NCBI RefSeq assembly: GCF_000468015.1
Contig: NZ_KI260449.1
Span: forward strand, 1-64,000
DNA: 64,000 nt
Reading direction: 5' to 3'
Origin: Ruminococcus callidus ATCC 27760
GTDB lineage: Bacteria; Bacillota; Clostridia; Oscillospirales; Ruminococcaceae
Part shown: piece after piece, positions 3,425 to 28,935 of the stretch
Layout: the number at the start of each line of letters is the position of its first letter
How positions within the stretch are numbered: the first letter of the stretch is position 1
The notes under the pieces: model-generated
Databases searched by the model: none
Seen by the model: the letters and a program-made list of their open reading frames with translations, nothing else
Told to the model about the DNA's origin: nothing
Translations under genes and position numbers: made by a program

Positions 3425-3784
3425 ATGTCGGATTTTTCTGGAAATCGAACAGTTTGCATTAAGTGCCGTGTTACGCAAGAAGAATATGCATACATCATGC
3501 AGAAATTGCAATGTTCGGGTTGCTCTACGATGTCTGATTATCTTCGCAAAATGGCAATTACGGGAATGATCATTCGTTATGATTCGGCTTTGCTGAAAGA
3601 CTTGCAGCAAAGTTTACAGCGTATCGGGAACAATGTAAACCAAATTGCAATTCGAGTGAATCAAAGTGGAATTCTGTACAAGGAGGATTTTGTGGAATTG
3701 CAAGAAAGGTATGAGGAAATATGGCGGTCACTAAAATCCATTCAATCCGTTCTACGCTGTCAAAAGCAATTGCCTACATCATGA
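3425..3784 (+). CDS. mobC: MobC-like relaxosome accessory protein
   Basis: This 119-residue protein starts with a ribbon-helix-helix-like segment (IKCRVTQEEYAYIMQKL, then STMSDYLRKMAI). It ends with the MobC-type helix LQRIGNNVNQIAIRVN. MobC proteins bind oriT and help the relaxase open the nick site. The start is preceded by an excellent AAGGAGG. Its last 64 bases overlap the relaxase gene in another frame, so the two are translationally coupled. It lies just downstream of the putative oriT. Confidence 0.88.
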   Translation: MSDFSGNRTVCIKCRVTQEEYAYIMQKLQCSGCSTMSDYLRKMAITGMIIRYDSALLKDLQQSLQRIGNNVNQIAIRVNQSGILYKEDFVELQERYEEIWRSLKSIQSVLRCQKQLPTS

Positions 3785-5106
3785 AACCTGAAAAAACTGA
3801 ACAAGGCAGATTGATTGAAACATTTTGCTGTGCACCATTTCAGGCAAATTTAATTGCAGAAGATTTTATGGAAACCAGAAGCATGGGAACTGGTCGAGGA
3901 GATGTGCTTGCCAAGCATATGATACAATCTTTTTTGCCCGATGAAATCACACCAGATGAAGCAATGGAAATTGGCAGAAAACTTGTAAAAAGCTTTTTGC
4001 ATGATGATTATCAATATGTGCTTGCAACGCACATTGATAAAGATCACATTCATAATCATATTATCTTTTGCAATACCAATATGGAAACCTTTCGAAGCTT
4101 CGAATATCAAGAGAATCGAGGTGGGCACGAAAAGGAAAGATTGCAGGAAATCAGTGATGCTTTGTGCAGAGAATATGGTTTGAATGTAATTGAAAATCCG
4201 AAACAAGGAAAAGGTAAGAGTCATTATGAATGGGACATGGCTCGACAGAACCGTTCATGGAAAGCAAAACTAAAAGATAAGATTGATGCTGCAATCATGA
4301 ACTGCACTGGTTTCGATGATTTCCTTTATCAGCTAAAGCAACAAGATGTGAATGTAGTTTATCGTCCGGAGAATGTGATTTCTTTGAAATATCGCTTAGA
4401 GGGCATGAAGCGATTTTGTCGTTCTCGAACACTGGGCTGGTATTATGAAGAAAAACAAATTCGAAAGCGAATTGACAATTATCAGTTACTGCGAACCGGA
4501 CGAACAACGTCCACGCAGAAGACTCGTTTGTATGATACTTCTGCGGAGAAGTTTCAACAGGCAAAGGGATTGTCAAGATGGGCTGAAATTCAGAATATAA
4601 AAGAGGCTTCTAAGATTCTGAATTACCTCACAGAAAAAGGAATTGCAACTCAAGAAGAATTAGAACAACGGTCTATTTTGACATATGGGCAGCGTGTGCA
4701 GTTAGTAGGAGATCTGAACAAGCTGCAACGTCAGATTGAAACTGTGACAGATACAATAAAGCTTGTGAAGAAATACAAAAAGTACAAGCCGTTTTATGAT
4801 GCGTATCAGAGTGCTACATTCCGAAAAAAGTATGAAAAGGAGCACAAGCAAGAGCTGCAACAGTTTTCAGATGCTAAATCGGCTCTTTTGGAACGATTCC
4901 CAGACCGGAAGATTCCAAGTTTGGAACGGCTTTCACAGGAGCGAGAGAAGCTGATAGAACAGAGAAATGTTCAAAATGGAGTATTTCGTCAGGTAGTAGC
5001 CGAGTTAAAAGAATTGGATTATGCACGTACTACTATTGAGGAATATCTTCACAGTCAGCAGCAAGTGCAGGAGAATCAGCAGAAGAAAGATGATGAATTG
5101 TATTAA
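3721..5106 (+). CDS. mobA: ICE relaxase (MOBP-type, MobA/VirD2 family)
   Basis: This 461-residue mobilisation nuclease nicks oriT and pilots the transferred strand. The N-terminal relaxase domain (about residues 1-200) contains the three-histidine metal site: H104, then H109-x-H111-x-H113 within HIDKDHIHNHIIF. Y19 in AIAYIMKP is a candidate catalytic tyrosine. The rest is charged and helical, with a coiled-coil-like tail. It overlaps mobC by 64 bases and follows GAGGAAAT as ribosome binding site. It is a clear homologue of the IME-A relaxase at 30311-31723: same start residues and same spacing of Y19 and the histidines. Confidence 0.93.
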   Translation: MAVTKIHSIRSTLSKAIAYIMKPEKTEQGRLIETFCCAPFQANLIAEDFMETRSMGTGRGDVLAKHMIQSFLPDEITPDEAMEIGRKLVKSFLHDDYQYVLATHIDKDHIHNHIIFCNTNMETFRSFEYQENRGGHEKERLQEISDALCREYGLNVIENPKQGKGKSHYEWDMARQNRSWKAKLKDKIDAAIMNCTGFDDFLYQLKQQDVNVVYRPENVISLKYRLEGMKRFCRSRTLGWYYEEKQIRKRIDNYQLLRTGRTTSTQKTRLYDTSAEKFQQAKGLSRWAEIQNIKEASKILNYLTEKGIATQEELEQRSILTYGQRVQLVGDLNKLQRQIETVTDTIKLVKKYKKYKPFYDAYQSATFRKKYEKEHKQELQQFSDAKSALLERFPDRKIPSLERLSQEREKLIEQRNVQNGVFRQVVAELKELDYARTTIEEYLHSQQQVQENQQKKDDELY

Positions 5107-12705: not shown

Positions 12706-12734
12706 TTGACAATTTCAAGGAAATCAAGTATAAT
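12706..12734 (+). promoter_or_regulatory. Promoter of the CHAT protease gene
   Basis: TTGACA (12706-12711) and TATAAT (12729-12734) are separated by exactly 17 bases, both perfect consensus. The start codon of the CHAT gene is more than 200 bases downstream. Confidence 0.85.
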
Positions 12735-12739
12735 GATAG

Positions 12740-12949
12740 TTAAACAGCAGTGTTTATATTGAGAAATTGCTTGGTTTATGATTGGAAGTAAATCCAATGC
12801 ACAGCTTGAAAATTTTTAGCCCTGTCTTTTCGATGGGGCTATTTTGATATAAAAAGCTTTAGTTTATATATAGAAAGGCACATTATGAGACATAAGGGCA
12901 TTTCAGAGCATTTTATCGGACAATATTGTATTAGAGGAGAATTTTATAA
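12740..12949 (+). promoter_or_regulatory. Long structured leader, possible attenuator, of the CHAT gene
   Basis: The roughly 200-base leader contains the hairpin ATTGGA/TCCAAT (12781-12798). A second hairpin, AGCCC/GGGGCT (12818-12840), is followed by ATTTTG and is a weak terminator. A small reading frame at 12886-12969 (27 codons, beginning MRHKGISEHF, with AGAAAGG upstream) ends inside the CHAT coding sequence. This layout resembles leader-peptide or attenuation control of inducible cargo genes. No ligand or signal can be named. Confidence 0.45.
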
Positions 12950-15028
12950 ATGTATCATCAAATAAATGATAAAATAAATTCTATTTATTTTTACTACATA
13001 ATCGTGTTTAAATCTACAAAAAATTCAGAAAATATCAGCCCTTTACAATTTAAATCTCAATACGATGTAATTGAGAACAATAGTATGCATATGCTGGATA
13101 AGGATTTGATAAATGTAATCCCAGCTATTAAGTATGCTTTACATTTGCCAAGATTTTGCTTTGATGTGATAGATTGTCCTGAAGAAATAATGCTTAAGTG
13201 GAATGGAAACTCCCATAATATATTATTAATTCCTGATAGTCAAATTGAAAAAATAGAACATTATTTTTGTTGTGTTCAATCATATCCAACGCTTTTTATT
13301 GTTGCAGATAATTGTGATTCTGATGCTATAAAGACATGTAAAAAATATAAGCCCACTCTTGAAACGTGCAAGGTAAGTGAATTGACAGACTCGCTTCTCA
13401 ATACTCATTGGAATATACTTAGTCAAATTGTTCAACAAATGGGAGAAGTAAGTTCAACACTTTCAATTCAGCATTCTTTTTTATCAGATAATATTTTTCC
13501 TGCTTTACCTTTATTATTTTATGCAAATCAGGTTGGTGGACATGATATAATTATAAAAGAGTTAATGAAACCAGATTGCCAGATTGAAAAAGTTTGTATT
13601 GAATGGACTTGCAAATACAGTATGATGCTTGATACTTGGTCGTACTTTATAAGTAACAATATAGATAGATCGACAATAACCGAAAAACAATACATAGAAG
13701 TATCTGAACGGAACAAAAAATTTAGCAGTAGCGTTATAGCCTCATTCCCTGGTCAATCTAAAGTCCTTAAAAAAAATCATATTTCAACAAATGGCTATTC
13801 ATCAGTAGATAACCAAATAATAAGCATTATGTGTGTACACAAGGCAATTGAAAAAAACGGCATATATATCAATCTTCCAATTATTCAAGATGACGCTTTT
13901 AGACTTTTGAATGAATTAGAATCTCATTGTATTGATAGTCGAAAATATAATAACAAGTATATTTGGAACACTATCATGAAAATAGGTATGATATTAAGCA
14001 AAAATTTGAATGATTATCAAATTTTTGCTTTGAAATATTCAAAAGATATTACCTTCTTTTCTGATTTTCCAATAGGGTTAGCTATTCTTCCTAATGATGA
14101 AGTGCCGTTGCTCTGCTATAAGAGTATTACATATAGACCTTTAACTCCATTAACACGTCAGCTTGAATTTGAATTACGTCCTAATAGAAGAATAATTTTA
14201 AAATCAAAAATCACAATTGCATTTGCACAATGTATTAATGACAATGATGAAATATATGGGCATTCTGAGTATGTATACAATTTCTTAAAAAGCCACTCTA
14301 ATTGCTTTACTGTTAATCATGCTAAAATAACAACTATCAAAGAAATGATTGAATTCATAAATCAAAACAAAGATGCTGATATTATGTATATCTCAGCTCA
14401 TGGTTGGTATCAAAAAGAACAAAACATAGCCGGAATTGAAATAGGCAAGGATTTTTGGATGGCAAATGATAATCTTGTTTTTCCTCCAGTAGTAATATTA
14501 AGTGCTTGTAATGTTAGTCCACGTGGAAGAGGTGCCGTATGTATTGCTGATTTACTGATTCAAAATGGTGCAGTAGCGGTACTTGGCACATTTATTCCTA
14601 TCAATGTTATACGAAATAACATTCTAATGGTTAGACTATTTACTTATATAATTGAAATTCTTGAAAAAAGGAGAAAAACTCAAAATTTATCTCAGCTATG
14701 GAACTTTATTGTTTTTTCAAATGCGATTCATGAAATAATGAAGCAATCCAAAGGTCTTGAAAAATGGATGTATGAAAAAATCGCACCTAACAAAACGAGG
14801 TTGCATGAATTTGAATTAGAGAGATGTGTAGGTAAACTAAGACCGAATCATATTTATTCGGATACAATATCTATAATAAAGGAAATGTTAGATGATAATG
14901 GATTATCGGGAAAATACGATAGTATCTTAAATAGTAAGGATTTCTTTCCAGAGTCCTTCTTCTATCAATGGATTGGTTCTCCAGATTCGATAATAATAGA
15001 TAATGGTGAACAAGGGATTAAATTATAG
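12950..15028 (+). CDS. CHAT-domain cysteine protease, putative defence effector
   Basis: This 692-residue protein has a C-terminal CHAT (caspase-HetF-associated) peptidase domain at about residues 430-630. The catalytic dyad is visible: H484 in MYISAHGW and C520 in VVILSACNVS. The typical GAVAVLGTF strand comes after. The N-terminal 430 residues match no domain I know; no TPR, transmembrane or nucleotide-binding motif is visible. CHAT peptidases are clan CD cysteine proteases, and several serve in phage defence by cleaving a partner. No partner gene is adjacent. It is much more AT-rich than its neighbours, with its own promoter, leader and terminator, so it looks like a horizontally acquired single-gene cargo. 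Start: ATG 12950, with AGAGGAG upstream. Confidence 0.8.
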   Translation: MYHQINDKINSIYFYYIIVFKSTKNSENISPLQFKSQYDVIENNSMHMLDKDLINVIPAIKYALHLPRFCFDVIDCPEEIMLKWNGNSHNILLIPDSQIEKIEHYFCCVQSYPTLFIVADNCDSDAIKTCKKYKPTLETCKVSELTDSLLNTHWNILSQIVQQMGEVSSTLSIQHSFLSDNIFPALPLLFYANQVGGHDIIIKELMKPDCQIEKVCIEWTCKYSMMLDTWSYFISNNIDRSTITEKQYIEVSERNKKFSSSVIASFPGQSKVLKKNHISTNGYSSVDNQIISIMCVHKAIEKNGIYINLPIIQDDAFRLLNELESHCIDSRKYNNKYIWNTIMKIGMILSKNLNDYQIFALKYSKDITFFSDFPIGLAILPNDEVPLLCYKSITYRPLTPLTRQLEFELRPNRRIILKSKITIAFAQCINDNDEIYGHSEYVYNFLKSHSNCFTVNHAKITTIKEMIEFINQNKDADIMYISAHGWYQKEQNIAGIEIGKDFWMANDNLVFPPVVILSACNVSPRGRGAVCIADLLIQNGAVAVLGTFIPINVIRNNILMVRLFTYIIEILEKRRKTQNLSQLWNFIVFSNAIHEIMKQSKGLEKWMYEKIAPNKTRLHEFELERCVGKLRPNHIYSDTISIIKEMLDDNGLSGKYDSILNSKDFFPESFFYQWIGSPDSIIIDNGEQGIKL

Positions 15029-15206: not shown

Positions 15207-15878
15207 TTATAGCGACGGTTTTCTCTTTTTATCCTGAGTGTGAGATTTATCTGATTCTTTTTGCTGCACAGCAGACTGAACTTGTTTTCTCTGCTTGCTA
15301 GAAAATGTAAAAGAAGATGGCTTTGAAGGCTGTTCATGTTGCTCTTGATGAGAGAGCAATTTCTTCTCCAGAACAGCTTCAAGCTTTTTGAAATCACAGC
15401 AACGTTTAGTAAGATTACGGGATTTCTCCGGCGTTTGAGTAACAAGAACATACAGCTTAGTTGCTTTTTTTGTGATAGATTCTATATTATTGTTACACCA
15501 GTCAAGTTGATTGTTCAACAGCTCTTTATAAGCTCGTTCTTTAGGAGAATCTCTTCTGTCAGGTCTGATGTCTAATATCCGAATTACTTCTTTTGAAACC
15601 GGAATCATGTTATTAAGATTGAGTGCTCCAATAATTTTGTTATCTGAATCTAAGATTTTTGAAAAATCCAGATCATTTTTCATTTTGCTATGTTTGGGCT
15701 TAGGCGAAGTTAGAGGAATACAATACTTATGTTGATCCATTACTATTATTATTCCTACAAATGGGCGATTCTCTTTGTGCTGTTGAGGTGACACAGACAT
15801 TACCTTATCATCGGCTTTAGCAAGATCACGAACATATTTCATGTCTAATTGATATAGATGTAATCGTTCTTTTTTCAT
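15207..15878 (-). CDS. toxN: Type III toxin, ToxN/AbiQ family endoribonuclease
   Basis: This 223-residue protein carries the family signatures: an N-terminal LYQLDMKYVRDL strand, ENRPFVGIIIVM, and HKYCIPLTSPKPKHSKMK, then DFSKI. The LTSPK segment corresponds to the catalytic Thr-Ser-Pro-Lys region. The last 55 residues are a charged, Ser/Lys-rich extension beyond the usual length of about 170. The toxin cuts RNA and is held inactive by repeats of its own antitoxin RNA. In characterised systems phage infection releases it and aborts the infection. The gene lies directly downstream of the repeats, terminator and promoter on the same strand, which is the standard type III order. A GGAGAAAAA site precedes ATG 15878. 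Confidence 0.92.
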   Translation of the reverse strand: MKKERLHLYQLDMKYVRDLAKADDKVMSVSPQQHKENRPFVGIIIVMDQHKYCIPLTSPKPKHSKMKNDLDFSKILDSDNKIIGALNLNNMIPVSKEVIRILDIRPDRRDSPKERAYKELLNNQLDWCNNNIESITKKATKLYVLVTQTPEKSRNLTKRCCDFKKLEAVLEKKLLSHQEQHEQPSKPSSFTFSSKQRKQVQSAVQQKESDKSHTQDKKRKPSL

Positions 15879-15901: not shown

Positions 15902-15930
15902 AAAAAGGCTGCGATAGAAATACCGCAGCC
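15902..15930 (-). terminator. Terminator between antitoxin RNA and toxN
   Basis: The stem GGCTGCG / CGCAGCC (arms within 15907-15930) is followed on the minus strand by T5. In type III systems this partial terminator sets the excess of antitoxin RNA over toxin mRNA. Confidence 0.85.
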
Positions 15931-15942
15931 TTGCTTTTAAAA

Positions 15943-16010
15943 AGTCCCACTCACAGTAGGGTCCACTGCTTTTAAAACTCCCACTCATAGTAGGGTCCAC
16001 TGCTTTTTAC
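15943..16010 (-). ncRNA. toxI: Type III antitoxin RNA (ToxI/antiQ), two repeats
   Basis: Two tandem copies, read on the minus strand, have a 34-base period and the core AGCAGTGGACCCTACT, then GAGTGGGA. The copies differ at only a few positions. The repeats lie between a minus-strand consensus promoter and the terminator ahead of toxN, as in ToxIN and AbiQ loci. Each repeat would be cut out by the toxin and fold as a pseudoknot inhibitor. Confidence 0.88.
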
Positions 16011-16058: not shown

Positions 16059-16087
16059 ATTATACCCAAAGAAATATCATTTGTCAA
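16059..16087 (-). promoter_or_regulatory. Promoter of the toxI-toxN locus
   Basis: On the minus strand, TTGACA (16087-16082) and TATAAT (16064-16059) are separated by 17 bases, about 50 bases upstream of the first repeat. Confidence 0.88.
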
Positions 16088-16375: not shown

Positions 16376-16669
16376 ATGATTAATTACACATTAATTCGTT
16401 CCAAAAAAGATATTGTTTTTCCGATGGTTGTCCGTTTGGCTATCTCGTTAGTTTCTCGTCGGATTTCTAAATTACCTGAAACGTCAAATATTTCTGACCT
16501 GAACAGAAAAATTGAAATCTGTGCAGAACGTTGTATTTTGTTTTCTGCACGCTGTGCGTTTGAAACGTCATTGGCTTATTTCAATATGTCCATGTTCGAT
16601 GCATCGAACCGCAAATACCGCTGTGCTGTCCGTTATCTGGTTTCCGTGGATGGGGGTGTAGTTTTATGA
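16376..16669 (+). CDS. Hypothetical 97-residue protein
   Basis: I recognise no family. It is basic and helical with several cysteines. GGGGGCATGAATT precedes the ATG. It overlaps the next gene by four bases (ATGA), so the two form a small operon between the two antitoxin RNA loci. Confidence 0.5.
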   Translation: MINYTLIRSKKDIVFPMVVRLAISLVSRRISKLPETSNISDLNRKIEICAERCILFSARCAFETSLAYFNMSMFDASNRKYRCAVRYLVSVDGGVVL

Positions 16670-17010
16670 CATACTGGGAAAAGCCGCAGAAAACCACGTT
16701 ATCAATGCGTTTGACAACGGATGAAAAACGTGCAATTCAGGATGCCGCAGCTGCAGCAGGGGAAACGGTTTCGGATTTTATCCGGTTATGCTGTCAGGTT
16801 GTTCCGTCCTGTTACATTGCGAAATGTGACGTTCTGGAAACTGGGGAAAAGGTTACTATTTATTTTTCTCCGGATACCGTTCCTCGTGTCGGTGATCGTG
16901 TTACAGTTTTTTCGGATGTAATCGGGGGGAAATGTCCCGGCGTTGTGAAATCTGTTACGCCGCAGTGGGAAACCGCAGAAACATTGCGTCAGCGGTACGA
17001 AATTGAATAA
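16666..17010 (+). CDS. Ribbon-helix-helix-like small protein
   Basis: Residues 10-45 of this 114-residue protein resemble a CopG/MobC-type ribbon-helix-helix (LSMRLTTDEKRAIQDAA, then ETVSDFIRLCC). The rest is a beta-rich segment of unknown kind. It may bind DNA. It is translationally coupled to the 97-residue gene and points towards the orphan antitoxin RNA, sharing its bidirectional terminator. Confidence 0.6.
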   Translation: MTYWEKPQKTTLSMRLTTDEKRAIQDAAAAAGETVSDFIRLCCQVVPSCYIAKCDVLETGEKVTIYFSPDTVPRVGDRVTVFSDVIGGKCPGVVKSVTPQWETAETLRQRYEIE

Positions 17011-17048: not shown

Positions 17049-17080
17049 AAAAAGACTGCGGATATATCCGCAGCCTTTTT
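17049..17080. terminator. Bidirectional terminator between RHH gene and orphan antitoxin RNA
   Basis: The stem CTGCGGAT/ATCCGCAG (17056-17072) has A6 on its left and T5 on its right. It can end the plus-strand operon and the minus-strand antitoxin RNA. Confidence 0.8.
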
Positions 17081-17082
17081 AA

Positions 17083-17192
17083 TTGTTTCCACTTACGGTA
17101 GGACTCACCGCTTTTATTGATTCCACTCATACAGTAGGACTCACTGCTCTTATCGGTTCCACTCACAGTAGGACTCACTGCTTTTTACAAAG
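17083..17192 (-). ncRNA. Orphan type III antitoxin RNA, three repeats
   Basis: Read on the minus strand, three tandem copies of AGCAGTGAGTCCTACTGT, then GAGTGGAA, occur with periods of 36 and 34 bases. They show the same layout as the toxI repeats at 15943-16010: promoter, AAGGC leader hairpin, repeats, terminator. The core differs (GAGTCC for GGACCC). No toxN gene lies downstream; the next minus-strand space is occupied by convergent plus-strand genes. It is therefore a complete antitoxin RNA unit without a cognate toxin. Confidence 0.8.
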
Positions 17193-17233
17193 GCGTGATG
17201 CCTTCATATGATAAATAAAAACTTATCTTTATT

Positions 17234-17262
17234 ATTATACCTAAAGTCATGTCATTTGTCAA
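17234..17262 (-). promoter_or_regulatory. Promoter of the orphan antitoxin RNA
   Basis: On the minus strand, TTGACA (17262-17257) and TATAAT (17239-17234) are separated by 17 bases, as in the toxI locus. A perfect promoter suggests the RNA is expressed. Confidence 0.85.
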
Positions 17263-22603: not shown

Positions 22604-22632
22604 TTGACAAAAAGCAGCGTGAGTGGTATAAT
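22604..22632 (+). promoter_or_regulatory. Promoter of the XRE-methyltransferase operon
   Basis: TTGACA (22604-22609) and TATAAT (22627-22632) are separated by 17 bases, with TGG giving an extended -10. It lies 22 bases upstream of the XRE start. Confidence 0.88.
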
Positions 22633-22653
22633 AAATAAGTTGAGGTGAAATGT

Positions 22654-23013
22654 ATGGCTGGAGTCGGAGATGTTATAAAAACAAACAGGGAATTATGTGG
22701 GTATTCCCGAAAAAAACTTGCTGAGTTGAGCAATATCAGCGACAGTGAGTTAATGAAAATTGAAAATGGCGATAGAAAGAATCCAAGTTGGAAAAATCTC
22801 TGCGAAATAGCCAAAGCCCTCGATATTAGCCCTATTGAATTTATGATTGAAACAGGTTATATTACGCAAAACGACTTAAATCCAGCCTATATGCTCAAAA
22901 GAGTGGATAAGTTGGAAAAGGACGATTTGCGTGATCTTCAGCTTTTTATAGATTTCCTCATTTCAAGGAAAAAAACACGATTGGAAGGATCAGGTGAGAA
23001 CAATGGTTTATAG
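22654..23013 (+). CDS. XRE regulator of the R-M locus
   Basis: This protein of about 119 residues has an N-terminal Cro/CI helix-turn-helix (GDVIKTNRELCGYSRKKLAE, then ENGDRKNPSWKNLCEIAKAL). A short charged tail follows. ATG 22654 is preferred to GTG 22645 because TGAGGTG (22641-22647) then sits 6 bases upstream. It overlaps the methyltransferase gene. Small XRE proteins in this position are commonly controller proteins that delay restriction relative to methylation; that role is inferred. Confidence 0.82.
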   Translation: MAGVGDVIKTNRELCGYSRKKLAELSNISDSELMKIENGDRKNPSWKNLCEIAKALDISPIEFMIETGYITQNDLNPAYMLKRVDKLEKDDLRDLQLFIDFLISRKKTRLEGSGENNGL

Positions 23014-24055
23014 GTTAGGAGAACTGTTCTGCGGTCCAGGCGGTATTGCTTGGGGTGCGACTAATGCAGACATTGGTGATCCTGAGTATCGCATTGTTCA
23101 TCAATGGGCAAATGACTATGATGCTGATACCTGCAAAACATATCGTCATAATATTTGTCCTAATGCACCTGAAACAGTTTACCACGAAGATATACGCAAG
23201 TTCGATATGTCCCAGCTTGCCCCTATTGATGCTCTCGCTTTCGGTTTTCCCTGCAATGATTATAGTGTAGTTGGTGAGCAGAAGGGTATGAATGGTGTCT
23301 ATGGGCCGCTTTATTCGTATGGAGTAAAGGCACTCAAACAATTCAAGCCTATTTGGTTTTTGGCTGAAAATGTTGGCGGTCTGAAAAACGCTAATGACGG
23401 AAAGGCGTTTACTAAGATAATAGCAGAGCTTAAAGGGGCAGGCTACACAGTTGTTCCGCATTTATACAAATTTGAGGAATATGGTATCCCGCAAGCCCGT
23501 CATCGTATAATCATCGTAGGAATACGAAACGATATAGATGTTGTCTATCGTGTTCCGTCCTCTGCTCCGTATGCTAATGTGGATAATTCTTGCAGGACAG
23601 CTATCGAAGTTCCCCCTATCCCCGAAGATGCTTTCAATAACGAAAGAACTAAGCAGTCTCCGCAAGTGGTTGAACGCCTTACGCATATACTACCAGGACA
23701 AAATGCTTTTACTGCTAATTTGCCTGAACATTTAAGATTAAATATAACAGGTGCAAAAATCAGCCAGATATACAAAAGACTTGATCCCGATAAGCCGTCA
23801 TATACTGTAACAGGCAGCGGAGGCGGTGGTACACATATCTACCATTGGGATGAACCAAGAGCGTTGACAAACAGAGAACGTGCAAGGCTTCAGACATTTC
23901 CTGATGAATATGAATTTATAGGAAGTAAAGAGGGCGTTAGAAAACAGATTGGTATGGCTGTTCCATGCAGAGGTGCAAAAATCATTTTTGAAGCAATACT
24001 ACGGAGCTTTGCAGGTGTACCTTACGATTATATTGAACCTAATATTGAAGAATAA
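23003..24055 (+). CDS. DNA (cytosine-5-)-methyltransferase
   Basis: This Dcm-family enzyme of about 350 residues carries the ordered motifs. Motif I is GELFCGPGGIAWG. Motif IV is GFPCNDYS (catalytic Cys about residue 84). Motif VI is ENVGG, motif VIII is QARHRIIIVG, and the C-terminal LTNRERARLQTFPDEY and GMAVPCRGAK complete the fold. It methylates C5 of cytosine and would protect self DNA from the nucleases of the convergent operon. The presence of Vsr in the locus fits an m5C specificity. The start is ATG 23003 or GTG 22994. It is co-transcribed with the XRE gene and ends at a shared bidirectional terminator. Confidence 0.95.
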   Translation: MVYRLGELFCGPGGIAWGATNADIGDPEYRIVHQWANDYDADTCKTYRHNICPNAPETVYHEDIRKFDMSQLAPIDALAFGFPCNDYSVVGEQKGMNGVYGPLYSYGVKALKQFKPIWFLAENVGGLKNANDGKAFTKIIAELKGAGYTVVPHLYKFEEYGIPQARHRIIIVGIRNDIDVVYRVPSSAPYANVDNSCRTAIEVPPIPEDAFNNERTKQSPQVVERLTHILPGQNAFTANLPEHLRLNITGAKISQIYKRLDPDKPSYTVTGSGGGGTHIYHWDEPRALTNRERARLQTFPDEYEFIGSKEGVRKQIGMAVPCRGAKIIFEAILRSFAGVPYDYIEPNIEE

Positions 24056-24058
24056 ACT

Positions 24059-24094
24059 AATGGCTGTGTTCTAAAAAGCAAGAACACAGCCATT
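24059..24094. terminator. Bidirectional terminator between methyltransferase and nuclease operon
   Basis: AATGGCTGTGTTCT pairs perfectly with AGAACACAGCCATT. A/T-rich flanks lie on both sides, between two convergent operons. Confidence 0.9.
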
Positions 24095-24097
24095 TTC

Positions 24098-24499
24098 TTA
24101 TATTATTTCAAGATAAACCTCGGTTGGACTTGTAAAAGTAACCTTCACTTTACTGCCAGCAGATGCTCCGGCATAAGCGAACCAAGCGCCTAATCTTTTG
24201 AGATCGCCTTTAATGTCAAAATTCTTTGCATACGGATCACCAGCTTCAGTGTTTCCCTGAGCTAATAATAATTCTTCATTGATAAACCCATCGCTGGACG
24301 TTGCTATAAACTCATTATATCCAAGTCCAGTAAACGAGTTTTTTGAATTGTATATTTTATATGCAACAGCATAATTTCTGGGGATTGCAATATATCCTTC
24401 TCCTTGAATAGGTGCTCTGTTAGTAGGATTTCTGTATGTTCCCCATGCTACTTGTGAAGGTGTGAGAGAAACAATAAATGAATCACCAGTCTTAGGCAT
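24098..24499 (-). CDS. Unknown 133-residue protein at the end of the R-M operon
   Basis: I do not recognise the family. It is beta-rich (SFIVSLTPSQVAWGTYRNP, GEGYIAIPRNYAVAYKIY, then KVKVTFTSPTEVYLEII) and lacks an obvious nuclease motif. The fold pattern could fit a small DNA-recognition barrel such as the B3-like domain of PLD restriction enzymes, but that is a guess. It has a strong AGGAGG site and is the last gene of the five-gene nuclease operon. Confidence 0.7.
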   Translation of the reverse strand: MPKTGDSFIVSLTPSQVAWGTYRNPTNRAPIQGEGYIAIPRNYAVAYKIYNSKNSFTGLGYNEFIATSSDGFINEELLLAQGNTEAGDPYAKNFDIKGDLKRLGAWFAYAGASAGSKVKVTFTSPTEVYLEII

Positions 24500-24519
24500 A
24501 ATATATTCCTCCTAAATCA

Positions 24520-24933
24520 TTAGTTTATTATTTTTTCGTATAATGCTCTTAGATTATCGTCAGCTGATTTCTTTTTCAGCTGGCATTCCCAAATCGTAAG
24601 CACTCGCCAGCCTTGTGCTTCAAGCTGTTCTGTATTGCTCTTGTCACGTTCAACATTGCGGTTAATTTTCTTAGTCCAGTATTCAATATTGCTTGACGGC
24701 ATAACGAACCGTCCACAATCATGCTTATGCCAAAAACAACCGTTTACAAATATAATCGTCTTATATTTTCTTAGCACAATATCAGGCTTGCCAGGGAGAG
24801 TGCGAACATTTTTCCTATATCGTAAGCCTTTAGAGAACAGGTACTTTCGTACAATCTCCTCCGGCTTAGAATTGGTGCTTCTGATATGTGACATATTCAT
24901 ACTGCGGACTTCTTTTGAATGGTTATCCGGCAT
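24520..24933 (-). CDS. vsr: Very short patch repair (Vsr) endonuclease
   Basis: This 137-residue protein has the complete Vsr pattern: RSMNMSHIRSTNSKPEEIVR, then LPGKPDIVLRKYKTIIFVNGC (motif with catalytic Asp), FWHKHDCGRFVMP and the C-terminal RVLTIWECQL. Vsr nicks 5' of the T in T:G mismatches that arise by deamination of 5-methylcytosine. It fits the m5C methyltransferase of this locus. Its ATG overlaps the preceding stop (TGATG). Confidence 0.95.
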   Translation of the reverse strand: MPDNHSKEVRSMNMSHIRSTNSKPEEIVRKYLFSKGLRYRKNVRTLPGKPDIVLRKYKTIIFVNGCFWHKHDCGRFVMPSSNIEYWTKKINRNVERDKSNTEQLEAQGWRVLTIWECQLKKKSADDNLRALYEKIIN

Positions 24934-25907
24934 CAGCTATCACCTAAAGCCTTTTTGGGAGAAAAGTCCATATAGTAAAGCTCCTCGTCTATTTTGGCGA
25001 ATACAACGTCGGTACGTCCGTAACGCTCTAAATCCTGTTTCGTAACAGGGTGTCCGTTCGGCAAATTGAGCCTGTTTCTGAAATACTCACCTAAGAGCGA
25101 ATTGTTCATTGGTGTTGTCAATGCTTTATTGTTTTGTTGTTCAGCTCTAAGAATAAGCTGATGCCCGTCATCTGTCAACACTGTGAAGTGGCGGTCTGTC
25201 GGAAAGAAGTCCTGCCGTGCAATCTGTATTGGTATGCGGATATACGCTTCATTACGATTTCGTTTATCACGCTGTCCCCAATTCAAACCTGATGTTCCTG
25301 CAACTATGCCTTTATTGGTAAGCAAAGAAAGTGAAACGCTTTTAACCGTCCCACAGGATATACTGCCTATCAATTCAGCTTCATTGTCAAGAATAGGGTG
25401 GTTATTGCGAATGATAATCATATCATCAATTTCAGAATGATTGCAGTAACATGATCTGCTTTCGGCTTCTTGGTAATAATCATACGCTTCACTTGGCGAA
25501 CATTCCTGCATAATCTCACGCCTTGACGAAATAAAGGCATTCTGAGTAAAGTCTGCTGATCCCACAAAGGCAAGTTCAGGGTGTTCGCCTTTAAGCCAAA
25601 TATACAGATTTGAATGCTCAGGTGGATTATCTGATATATAATTACAGCTAAAAGACCTGACGCTCTTAGATGTATAAGTATTATGCAGTGAAAGAAATCC
25701 ATTGTGTGCTGGAATACTAATACCATCATAAGCGGTCATTCCGACAATCACCGATATATCAATAGGTGCAGTTTTTCTTTCCTGAAGCTGTTTCATATAC
25801 CATGATGACATATTTGGGGTAGCATAACTGCTCAATATCAGAAGTTTGTCCGCTCTGCAAGCGATAGGATCGAACAAGATCGGTTTTGTTATATCTCCTG
25901 TTATCAT
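24933..25907 (-). CDS. PLD/NgoFVII-family protein with degenerate active site
   Basis: This 324-residue protein has an N-terminal phospholipase-D-like domain and a C-terminal part resembling the B3-like DNA-binding domain of NgoFVII/BfiI-type enzymes. The expected HxK motif reads H98-S99-N100 (EHSNLYIW), so the lysine is replaced. The GSxN motif reads GSAD (116-119). The following Glu (E131) is retained. As read, the catalytic apparatus is incomplete, while the paralogue at 27775-28935 is intact. It may be a specificity or structural partner. It is coupled to Z1 upstream and Vsr downstream. Confidence 0.8.
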   Translation of the reverse strand: MITGDITKPILFDPIACRADKLLILSSYATPNMSSWYMKQLQERKTAPIDISVIVGMTAYDGISIPAHNGFLSLHNTYTSKSVRSFSCNYISDNPPEHSNLYIWLKGEHPELAFVGSADFTQNAFISSRREIMQECSPSEAYDYYQEAESRSCYCNHSEIDDMIIIRNNHPILDNEAELIGSISCGTVKSVSLSLLTNKGIVAGTSGLNWGQRDKRNRNEAYIRIPIQIARQDFFPTDRHFTVLTDDGHQLILRAEQQNNKALTTPMNNSLLGEYFRNRLNLPNGHPVTKQDLERYGRTDVVFAKIDEELYYMDFSPKKALGDS

Positions 25908-25908
25908 A

Positions 25909-27771
25909 TTATTCTCCCTGTGTATCTTCTTCTAACACATCATAATACATCGTTCCATGTGGGAGCTTGATATTCGGTATCCAAAGCTTTTTGCCTTTCC
26001 AGCCTTTATTGCCCGTAACCTGATACATGGTCAAGACAGGCTTATCAGTAAACTGTCCGCCTAACTTCCAATCGTTCGGAGAAATCAAAGCGCCAGTACC
26101 CTGAGCGACATCTCTTTCACGCCTTACGATCAGAATACCTTGCCCCGCAGGAGTATCTGCGAGCATAGTATCCAGCACAGACATAAATGCAGAGAGCTTA
26201 AAATCGGGGCTTGGAATGATGTGCGACAGCACTTCCTTGATAAATCGCAGACTCACCTGATAATAAAGCTCTGTGTTGTCAAAGGCTTTCAGAAGCTCGG
26301 AAATGCTTTCAATGGTATCATTATCAGGATAGAACGGATAGTAGTTTGTTCCGCCAGATATAATCTCAACGTGTTTATTGTCAAGCACATTCTTTCGGGT
26401 AGGATTAAGACCTTCGGGATAGTAAATCTTAACATCATCTATGCCGCGCTCGATCTGAGCAATGATAGAATTGTTCGTAGAGTTTATATCAGAGAACAGT
26501 TTATAAAGATGCTCGTCAATATAAATCATCATCATGCCCGGATCACGGTCATATCCAAACATTCTGCTGTGCTGCCACATTGTATCTGCCTGCGGTTTCT
26601 TGCTTGTTCTTGTATAGTAGATAGTCTGCAATCCAGGGAATGTAACACCTCTGCCGAGTGTGTTTCCTCCGATAACGATATTGCTCCCCTGAGCATAAGC
26701 AGAGCTGTCAACCTCGTTAGTGCCGTTCATTATGTAAACATTGATTTCATCGTTCATAACAAGGCTTTCGGCTTTGCTGAATATAACATCATAAGATAAC
26801 TTAGCGGATTTCTGAGGATTGAGCGATGCACTATGCTTTATAATTTCCGCCTTAAACTCAGCATTGTTGGCTTTGCACCATTCAAGCACTTTCTTTACAT
26901 CTTTAGCATAGGTGTTGTGTGCTGACTGCCTTACACTTGGGTGAATAAGACCATTGCAGACCTTTCCGCCAGATGCAAGCACCTGTGCAGATACTGTAAT
27001 ATGACGTAAAACCGCTTCTTTAGTATCTTCCTTGACAGTTTCAAGAAATGTTATGCAATCAGGCTTCTGCGAGGACGGGAAGAAGAAATCACCGCCCAAA
27101 TAGGCACTTCCAGGCTGAAAATAATAGGTGAAGTATGGGTGCCAGCCTGATGCCATTGTTTGAAGCAGGATAGCCTGCGGTGTACCTGTAACTTGAAGAT
27201 ACAGGCTACTTGTTGCTCCATTCTTAATAGAATTGAGATACTTGTTGATAGAAGAAAACTGATTGCCTTTGCGGTTAATAAAGGTATTTAGAGATGCGGC
27301 ATCAGCCTCATCATCAATAATAAAAAGCGGATTGCCTTTCATAAATCCCGTAGTATTGAAGATGTTAGCCCATTTTCTCAATACTCTGGAGTTCTTTTTC
27401 AGAATAATGATTGCAGGCTGTATCAGGCTGTTTTCAACGAATAATCCTGTATCATCTTCTCCGCAGATACAAAAGCCCTCCAAATCGGATTTTACACGCT
27501 CCAATGTCTGCGCCTGTAAAACAACGTTATCTGTTGTAAGTATTAGAAACGCAGGAAAACCTAAATCAGCGGCTTTGCATAAGATACCAAACATCTGTCC
27601 TGTCTTGCCTGATTGAACATTTCCGAACAGAAGTCCGATCTCATGACTTGTAAACGAAAAGGTGCTGATATAGCTCTTTCCAATATCTTCTGCGGTTTTG
27701 GAGATGGATTCTGCGAGCTTCTCATTACCTCTCGCTATGATTTTGTTCAGATAGGTTTTAAGATACTGCAT
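25909..27771 (-). CDS. Z1-domain superfamily II ATPase
   Basis: This 620-residue protein is helicase-like. Its Walker A is FGNVQSGKT (49-57), its Walker B is FIIDDEADAAS (about 150-160), and VTGTPQA follows as motif III. GGNTLGRGVTFPGLQ and MWQHSRMFGYDR stand in place of motifs V and VI. The region after motif III matches the Z1 domain, which is found with endonucleases and methyltransferases in restriction loci. It probably couples ATP hydrolysis to DNA translocation or nuclease activation. It lies four bases after the active PLD nuclease and one base before its degenerate partner. Confidence 0.9.
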   Translation of the reverse strand: MQYLKTYLNKIIARGNEKLAESISKTAEDIGKSYISTFSFTSHEIGLLFGNVQSGKTGQMFGILCKAADLGFPAFLILTTDNVVLQAQTLERVKSDLEGFCICGEDDTGLFVENSLIQPAIIILKKNSRVLRKWANIFNTTGFMKGNPLFIIDDEADAASLNTFINRKGNQFSSINKYLNSIKNGATSSLYLQVTGTPQAILLQTMASGWHPYFTYYFQPGSAYLGGDFFFPSSQKPDCITFLETVKEDTKEAVLRHITVSAQVLASGGKVCNGLIHPSVRQSAHNTYAKDVKKVLEWCKANNAEFKAEIIKHSASLNPQKSAKLSYDVIFSKAESLVMNDEINVYIMNGTNEVDSSAYAQGSNIVIGGNTLGRGVTFPGLQTIYYTRTSKKPQADTMWQHSRMFGYDRDPGMMMIYIDEHLYKLFSDINSTNNSIIAQIERGIDDVKIYYPEGLNPTRKNVLDNKHVEIISGGTNYYPFYPDNDTIESISELLKAFDNTELYYQVSLRFIKEVLSHIIPSPDFKLSAFMSVLDTMLADTPAGQGILIVRRERDVAQGTGALISPNDWKLGGQFTDKPVLTMYQVTGNKGWKGKKLWIPNIKLPHGTMYYDVLEEDTQGE

Positions 27772-27774
27772 ATA

Positions 27775-28935
27775 TTATTCCTCGTCTTTGGAAGAAATGA
27801 ACTCGACAATCCATACGTCAAGCTCATTTCCGTCCTCGTCTGCTGCTTTCTTATTTGTCTTTGTAAATGTAAGGCTGTCACACCCATAAGCTTCAAGCAT
27901 TTCTTTCGTTATCATGCCTATTCTGTCCGTATCCTTTTGTGTATCGTGTACGGGTGTTACCAATCCTGCGGCAGCAATTCTGCCTTTGAGCCAATATCCT
28001 AAGATATGCTCACTTCCTACTGCGTTAAGCTGTTTGTTGTTATCACTGGTAGTATGCGCCTTGAACATAAAGCCGTCATCGGTAACGATAAAGAATGGCT
28101 CGTTTCTCTTTGGGTATCCAGGCAGGGTGTAAACACTGCTCGGAACAGTTATCTGAAATTCATACCAGTTTCTTGATTTAGGTCTTTTCGGATTTCTTGT
28201 GTCAAGAGAATAGCAGACATTGATATTGGATTGAGTATAGTGCTTTTTATCGTCCATAAATCTCTCGGAAAATGCAGGGACTTTCAAAGGAAGCGTAAAT
28301 GTCAGATTGGTTTTATGTTTACTATAAAGCTCTATATCATTCTTCGGAAGCTCCTCAACGGTATCAATGCCAGTAAGAGATACATTCTGTTCTCTGATAA
28401 GCGGCATATCATCAACATCGGCAATATTGATAGAGCAGATAGGAGCTTTTATACGTTCCACAATATCTGCAAGCTCCTGTGTTTCAGAGATGTCCTCAGT
28501 GAGAGAGCACAGCTCATACTGACGGCGGTTATTAGCTTCAAGTTTGAGAACGCCTAAATTTGCAGAGCCGATAACAGCGGAAATAGGTGCATTATTCTTA
28601 TAGAAGCAGTACACCTTGCCGTGATATTTCAGCGAGCGCACGATGCGTATTTCACCAATGCCCATATCCTGCCACTTCTTATTAAGCCTAACGGCAGTAT
28701 GATATGTCTTTTCAGGCATACCCTCAATATAGTACATTCCAATGACAAGAACAATCTGCTTGATCTTGTTTTCACAAATTAACCTATCCAGCTCTTCAAG
28801 CGATGCAAGAGAGACATATCCGACTGCAATATCAACTCTGTCCGATTTGGCTATCTGCTGTTTGATGCTTTCATCTATGGTTTCCTGATTATCCTGTATT
28901 CCTAACGGAAGCATATTAGAATATAATACTTTCAT
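27775..28935 (-). CDS. PLD-family restriction endonuclease (NgoFVII-like)
   Basis: This 386-residue protein is the first gene of the nuclease operon. The N-terminal PLD nuclease domain is intact: H105-x-K107 in KYHGKVYCF, GSAN (123-126) and E141 in RRQYELCSL. The C-terminal half (from about 225) has the beta-rich pattern RNWYEFQITVPSSVY, then EPFFIVTDDGFMFKAH, of the NgoFVII DNA-binding domain. Enzymes of this family cut DNA without metal and act as dimers. Promoter at 28995-29023; a GGGGGA site precedes the ATG. Confidence 0.88.
   Translation of the reverse strand: MKVLYSNMLPLGIQDNQETIDESIKQQIAKSDRVDIAVGYVSLASLEELDRLICENKIKQIVLVIGMYYIEGMPEKTYHTAVRLNKKWQDMGIGEIRIVRSLKYHGKVYCFYKNNAPISAVIGSANLGVLKLEANNRRQYELCSLTEDISETQELADIVERIKAPICSINIADVDDMPLIREQNVSLTGIDTVEELPKNDIELYSKHKTNLTFTLPLKVPAFSERFMDDKKHYTQSNINVCYSLDTRNPKRPKSRNWYEFQITVPSSVYTLPGYPKRNEPFFIVTDDGFMFKAHTTSDNNKQLNAVGSEHILGYWLKGRIAAAGLVTPVHDTQKDTDRIGMITKEMLEAYGCDSLTFTKTNKKAADEDGNELDVWIVEFISSKDEE

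Follow-up and report, generated by a model that had tools for sequence, protein, structure and literature searches.

A toxin-less type III antitoxin cassette on an integrative and conjugative element of Ruminococcus callidus is probably a retained antidote against the toxins of other elements

The stretch of DNA analysed here, positions 1 to 64,000 of contig NZ_KI260449.1 of Ruminococcus callidus ATCC 27760 (hereafter the window), belongs to an integrative and conjugative element (ICE) and carries, at 17262-17049 on the minus strand, a full toxI-like type III antitoxin cassette: a promoter, a leader, three pseudoknot repeats of 34-36 nucleotides (nt) and a terminator. No toxin gene follows it. 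The data suggest that this orphan cassette is probably a retained stand-alone antidote against ToxN toxins that belong to other elements and are linked to arrays with the same GAGTCC repeat core, so that it would serve as an anti-addiction or anti-abortive-infection device.

The orphan promoter (17234-17262, minus strand, as are all parts of the cassette) matches TTGACA-17-TATAAT at 12 of 12 positions. Five such perfect promoters exist in the 64-kb window, against 0.03 expected, and the orphan and the neighbouring toxI have one each. The leader (17185-17233) contains the inverted repeats GATAAG..TTATC and GAAGGC..GCCTTT, which by alignment are also in the toxI leader. The repeats start at about 17184, 17150 and 17114. 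Unit 1 (17151-17184) has the stem CAGU/ACUG, the core GAGUCC and the pseudoknot arm GGA, unit 2 (17115-17150) has the same core and a 2-nt insertion in the loop ahead of the arm, and unit 3 (17081-17114) has a compensated stem, CGGU/ACCG, with core GAGUCC and arm GGA. Tandem Repeats Finder reported the array at 17078-17185 with period 34, 3.1 copies and a score of 144. An intrinsic terminator with a 14-pair stem and a T-run closes the cassette (17049-17080). The orphan thus has the tandem H-type pseudoknot repeats of about 34-36 nt of a type III locus, with a single upstream promoter and a downstream terminator (by consensus match), and lacks the ToxN-family gene that should lie directly downstream. 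Two small plus-strand open reading frames (ORFs), convergent with the orphan, lie at that position instead (16376-17010), one of 97 amino acids (aa; 16376-16669) and one encoding a 114-aa NikA-like ribbon-helix-helix protein (16666-17010, PF21983). When 16 ToxN proteins were searched by tblastn against the surrounding 7 kb, the only match was the true toxN of the neighbouring operon, and no toxN gene or remnant was found at the orphan.

That neighbouring operon is a complete toxIN at 16087-15207, on the same strand as the orphan, with the two arrays about 1.1 kb apart. It consists of a consensus TTGACA-17-TATAAT promoter (16059-16087), a toxI array of two units with core GGACCC and arm GGG (15942-16006), a terminator (15905-15932) and a gene for a 223-aa ToxN endoribonuclease (15207-15878; PF13958, 165.9 bits, E=1e-48). 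The closest solved structure to this ToxN is PDB 4ato (E=2.4e-19), with 2xd0 and 7d8o also matched, and PADLOC calls it AbiQ. The two cassettes can be aligned from promoter through leader and units to terminator, and the repeats differ in core and arm, GAGTCC/GGA in the orphan vs GGACCC/GGG in the neighbour. Because the promoter, leader and terminator are homologous as well as the units, the orphan is, on this alignment, a paralogue of the neighbour's whole cassette. A CRISPR-like or chance repeat was ruled out because the units align with toxI units and covary. An earlier note on this DNA, made from its letters, had described three near-identical minus-strand repeats between a perfect promoter and a terminator, a layout like that of the toxI 1.1 kb away, convergent genes in the place of toxN, and carriage on an ICE. 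All of these descriptions held, with the insertion in unit 2 and the compensated stem of unit 3 as refinements.

The same note had suggested from the difference in core that the orphan may neutralise a different toxin and had proposed a search for the GAGTCC repeat beside toxN elsewhere. That search was positive. One exact-pattern scan of GTDB genomes found the GAGTCC unit at 37 loci in Oscillospiraceae, Lachnospiraceae and other gut bacteria; 22 have ToxN downstream, 14 are orphans and 1 lies at a contig end. In a ToxN tree, the 19 proteins whose linked arrays are of the GAGTCC or GAGGCC type all fall into a single supported clade (97/91), which leaves out the window ToxN and the other GGACCC-linked ToxNs. 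The members of this clade are about 48-63% identical to the window ToxN, and the suggestion of a different toxin is borne out to the extent that core and clade go together. The window genome (97.8% complete) has no second ToxN, none of the GAGTCC clade and no other GAGTCC array; its sole ToxN is GGACCC-linked. The orphan is therefore a solitary antitoxin in the usual sense, an intact antitoxin gene homologous to the antitoxins of complete systems with no partner in its genome. Given the clade match and the lack of such a ToxN in its own genome, it appears to be an antidote to toxins that naturally reside in other genomes. Genomes with the label Ruminococcus sp. from animal guts hold some of the GAGTCC-toxin loci (L057, L064), and an orphan-bearing relative, G002 (L070), has the same label. 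Type III antitoxins of the CptIN and ToxIN families have been described as highly selective (PMC4627078), and we infer that the repeat core decides toxin specificity.

The pseudoknot, which all units can form, pairs the end of the core with the arm after AGU, UCC/GGA in the orphan and CCC/GGG in the neighbour. Across 22 dimers, in which rows had been pre-selected for pairing, the first pseudoknot pair is UA in 12, CG in 7 and GC in 3, and one stem pair is AU in 13 and GC in 9. When units were gathered without a pairing rule, requiring only a readable arm, all three pseudoknot pairs were kept in 70/70 orphan and 72/72 toxN-linked units, compared to 49 and 55 with shuffled arms.

Toxin-less cassettes recur. 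A two-unit covariance model was applied to 397 genomes of the family and 391 of the class, and 18 genomes had strong matches. Judged by reading the array flanks, 11 of these 18 have at least one array without toxN after it, and in 1 more the array ends at a contig edge. No ToxN match was found anywhere in 12 distinct orphan-bearing genomes. Genome G360 has a stack of five complete cassettes in about 1.4 kb (L152:7000-8400, minus strand). Every cassette of the stack has its perfect promoter and its terminator, and no protein gene intervenes. Their cores are GAACCC in three units, GTACCC in three units, a five-unit mosaic (AGTCCC, GGTCCC, GGTCCC and GGACCC-type units), GAGTCC in three units, and a variant GAACCC type. 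The reading of the ORF after the stack suggests an integrase-like protein. Within the stack, the terminator and upstream sequence are repeated, as if by tandem duplication of a cassette followed by a change of units. Another contig of the same genome has two orphan cassettes directly upstream of a complete toxIN, the same layout as in the window. In genome G237, where ToxN is absent, three orphan cassettes lie close to a tRNA gene, and G002, which belongs to the genus of the window, has a single array with three different cores (GGTCCC, GAGTCC, GAACTC) and no ToxN. By these matches the window orphan is one case of a recurrent class and not a single oddity. Mixed cores were considered as a hallmark of orphans and this was unsupported, as more than one core occurs in 5/30 orphan vs 7/26 toxN-linked arrays; a mix of GGA and GGG arms was seen in orphans only, with numbers too few to weigh (2/30 vs 0/26).

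Two further observations were made among these loci. A second, longer unit type, in which the core is followed by TATAAAATAA before the arm, is ToxN-linked at L022 and also makes up orphan cassettes at L048:7567-7790, L054:2022-2243 (minus strand) and L154:6452-6680; in the L154 array one unit pairs CACUC/GAGUG and its neighbour ACCC/GGG. In addition, drum RNA (Rfam RF02958) comes directly 3' of an orphan toxI cassette with its own TTGACA-17-TATAAT promoter in two unrelated genomes (L160:5024-5138, plus strand; L059:1460-1576, minus strand), and genome G156, which lacks ToxN, has four drum RNAs. It is possible that drum RNA forms stand-alone RNA cassettes of this same kind.

The cargo site of the window orphan is shared with a relative. 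The window was assigned to an ICE by genes for MobC, a relaxase (3721-5103), a TraG/VirB4-like protein, TrbL and a topoisomerase. Both the window orphan and the array of G002 follow an SNF2/methylase-type gene (66% identity across 1340 residues) and precede the same ParB-side cluster. Their orientation is also the same, but downstream of the G002 array is an AbiEii gene instead of toxIN. Judged by these flanks, the orphan is common to two diverged members of the ICE whose adjoining complete systems differ. Around more distantly related SNF2 genes, no array lies within 1.5 kb, and the orphan was rejected as a fixed part of the ICE family, since only the window and G002 have one near this gene among the loci inspected. 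A leading-region position beside oriT is not claimed for the orphan. The earlier note had named a toxN relic at this exact site in close relatives, a sign of simple decay, as evidence that would refute its reading; none was found, and at this site the related ICE of G002 likewise carries an orphan array and no toxN.

Whether orphans are retained or are simply on their way out was approached through their promoters. The arrays were found by their units, so the intactness of the units is partly a selection effect; promoters played no part in the search. Upstream sequence was sufficient for 29 orphan arrays, and in 28 of them a promoter matches at least 10 of 12 positions; 17 promoters are perfect and 26 have the 17-nt spacing. 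The toxN-linked arrays are no better (22/26), and random windows reach this score in 28/400 cases. Orphan promoter hexamers are 94% identical vs 38% for the spacers.

Several points weigh against a retained antidote. The searches require intact units and would miss decayed orphans, although the promoter comparison is free of that bias. Stumps of the 5' end of toxN remain at other orphans (L048, L060, L061 by tblastn, and L164), and at L052 and L063 only a few toxN codons are left. Since several orphans keep the first toxN codons, toxN deletion is evidently the birth route of at least some of them. Near-identical cassettes stand in unrelated flanks in different species (L066/L083 and L058/L074), which suggests that the cassette itself moves and also that these copies may be young. 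Nearly all orphan genomes are metagenome-assembled genomes. Core variation is tolerated in toxN-linked arrays, where GAGTCC occurs with GAGGCC, GAATCC or GGGTCC, and selectivity between toxins that are 48-63% identical is a prediction from the match of core and clade. Among mobile elements known to enter this host, none was found to carry a GAGTCC-clade toxN. The transcription, processing, neutralising activity and benefit of the orphan are likewise predicted from its sequence.

The stumps and the possible youth of some copies are what favour a decay relic, in which a deletion or insertion cost a former GAGTCC toxIN its toxN and left an antitoxin gene that is idle and has not yet decayed. One genome also has a toxN with internal stops beside its arrays; there (L059 / L155, G397 contig C6) a GAGTCC orphan, a drum RNA and the interrupted toxN beside another array stand together, and the locus appears to hold several stages of toxin loss. 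However, a decay relic does not readily account for intact promoters around diverged spacers, for stacks of orphan cassettes without an intervening protein gene, for the presence of an orphan at this ICE site in a relative with a 34% diverged backbone protein, or for the lack of any toxN remnant at the window site. This explanation is considered unlikely for the window orphan, though it is the likeliest of the rivals.

It is also conceivable that the orphan is a dosage helper, a second array that adds antidote for the GGACCC-linked ToxN 1.1 kb away. The two arrays share a strand and a near-identical promoter and leader, the neighbour's own array has two units only, and the paired orphan cassettes directly upstream of toxIN in G360 fit such a role. 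However, core and arm differ between the two arrays and track the toxin clade, the reported selectivity of type III antitoxins (PMC4627078) speaks against cross-neutralisation, and the 12 orphan-bearing genomes without ToxN have nothing to buffer. A role of this kind appears quite improbable. That the cassette is a regulatory small RNA that reuses the fold for something unrelated to toxin neutralisation is very hard to credit: no Rfam family matches the cassette at gathering score, so no known function is assigned, but its units are identical in type to those ahead of toxN at 22 loci and its layout is the toxI layout. Weaker Rfam matches, to different kinds of small RNA, mainly covered the terminator and appear to be chance hits.

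If the orphan is a retained antidote, the model would be as follows. The cassette would be transcribed constitutively. When a GAGTCC-clade ToxN enters the cell or loses its own toxI, whether it is borne by a competing plasmid, ICE or prophage or is met by the ICE in a new host, that ToxN would cut the orphan transcript into 34-36-nt pseudoknots and be trapped by them as an inactive ToxN-RNA ring, which is the usual trapping form of ToxIN. The ICE and its host would then be immune to that toxin family and escape post-segregational killing, growth arrest or abortive infection. Orphans of this kind would arise when toxN is deleted from a toxIN operon, the antidote then being kept by selection, and they would move as cassettes of a few hundred bases, with some genomes accumulating stacks of different specificities. 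It has been reported that antitoxin RNA supplied in trans suppresses ToxN-mediated abortive infection and, from phage PhiTE, that additional ToxI-like RNA in trans can defeat ToxIN (PMC3475682). More tentatively, and with somewhat less confidence than an even chance, gut Clostridia and their ICEs could keep islands of stand-alone toxI cassettes, each for a different ToxN clade, built cassette by cassette and at times unit by unit inside an array. These islands would be an inherited set of antidotes to plasmids, ICEs and prophages that come armed with toxins, with the window orphan as a one-cassette member.

Three other features of the window were recorded. At 12706-12845 (plus strand) a perfect TTGACA-17-TATAAT promoter precedes a short piece of non-coding DNA that contains a hairpin and a T-rich tail and has no match in Rfam, and downstream lies a gene for a CHAT-domain protein (12950-15028, BovA-like by PADLOC); together they are possibly another RNA-plus-effector unit. 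Another perfect promoter, at 22604-22632 (plus strand), stands ahead of a helix-turn-helix gene, and its spacer, AAAAGCAGCGTGAGTGG, resembles the joined ends of a toxI unit. A restriction-modification cluster (C5 methylase, Vsr, NgoFVII-type nuclease, a second restriction endonuclease and a helicase) occupies 22645-28935 of the same ICE.

In the full-text literature search, which did not reach the main 2012 survey of type III loci, bacterial toxI cassettes that lack a toxin were nowhere described, either singly or in stacks; what the search returned was the PhiTE case and orphan antitoxins of the protein kind. For proteins, the idea that a solitary antitoxin acts in anti-addiction is established, and for RNA antitoxins the sole worked example in the literature searched is a phage. 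If the present reading is true, a recurrent class of toxin-less toxI cassettes in ICEs and bacteria, with multi-core stacks, would show type III systems to be the driver of an arms race of antidotes among mobile elements; it is as if cells and such elements gathered protection from one another's toxins. Units of about 34 nt with a readable pseudoknot code make specificity testable by simple co-expression. Additionally, because many arrays have no toxin, counts of type III systems by array or toxin alone mislead.

Compared with classical ToxIN (atrosepticum, B. thuringiensis, E. coli and AbiQ; PMC5086642, PMC8860590), the orphan has the same promoter, tandem 34-36-nt pseudoknot repeats and terminator, and the neighbouring operon also has the ToxN; the orphan differs in that it has no toxin gene, stands alone and has a core that fits another toxin clade. 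The pseudo-ToxI of PhiTE (PMC3475682) resembles the orphan in its predicted use, as toxin-free ToxI-like repeats from a foreign element that block ToxN in trans. However, the 1.5 repeats of wild-type PhiTE do not make up even one complete antitoxin unit and have to be expanded, whereas the orphan has three complete units with its own promoter and terminator. Also, pseudo-ToxI is carried by a phage, while the orphan is ICE-borne and has no significant phage match: no convincing match was found in INPHARED, nor a plasmid match in PLSDB, and pattern scans of IMG/VR returned 0, 2 and 6 contigs, with no covariance-model score for any of them. Phages are also cited (in PMC12548467) as carrying orphan antitoxin-like enzymes against DarTG1; these are similar as stand-alone counters to a host toxin, and differ in being enzymes, phage-borne and of unrelated mechanism. 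Orphan type II antitoxins, anti-addiction modules and the orphans of plasmid leading regions likewise are antidotes without a toxin on a mobile element or chromosome, and are thought to counter the toxins of other elements (PMC12548467, PMC11541004, PMC7354431). Those antidotes are proteins, whereas the window orphan is an RNA pseudoknot array, from a class that includes multi-core stacks.
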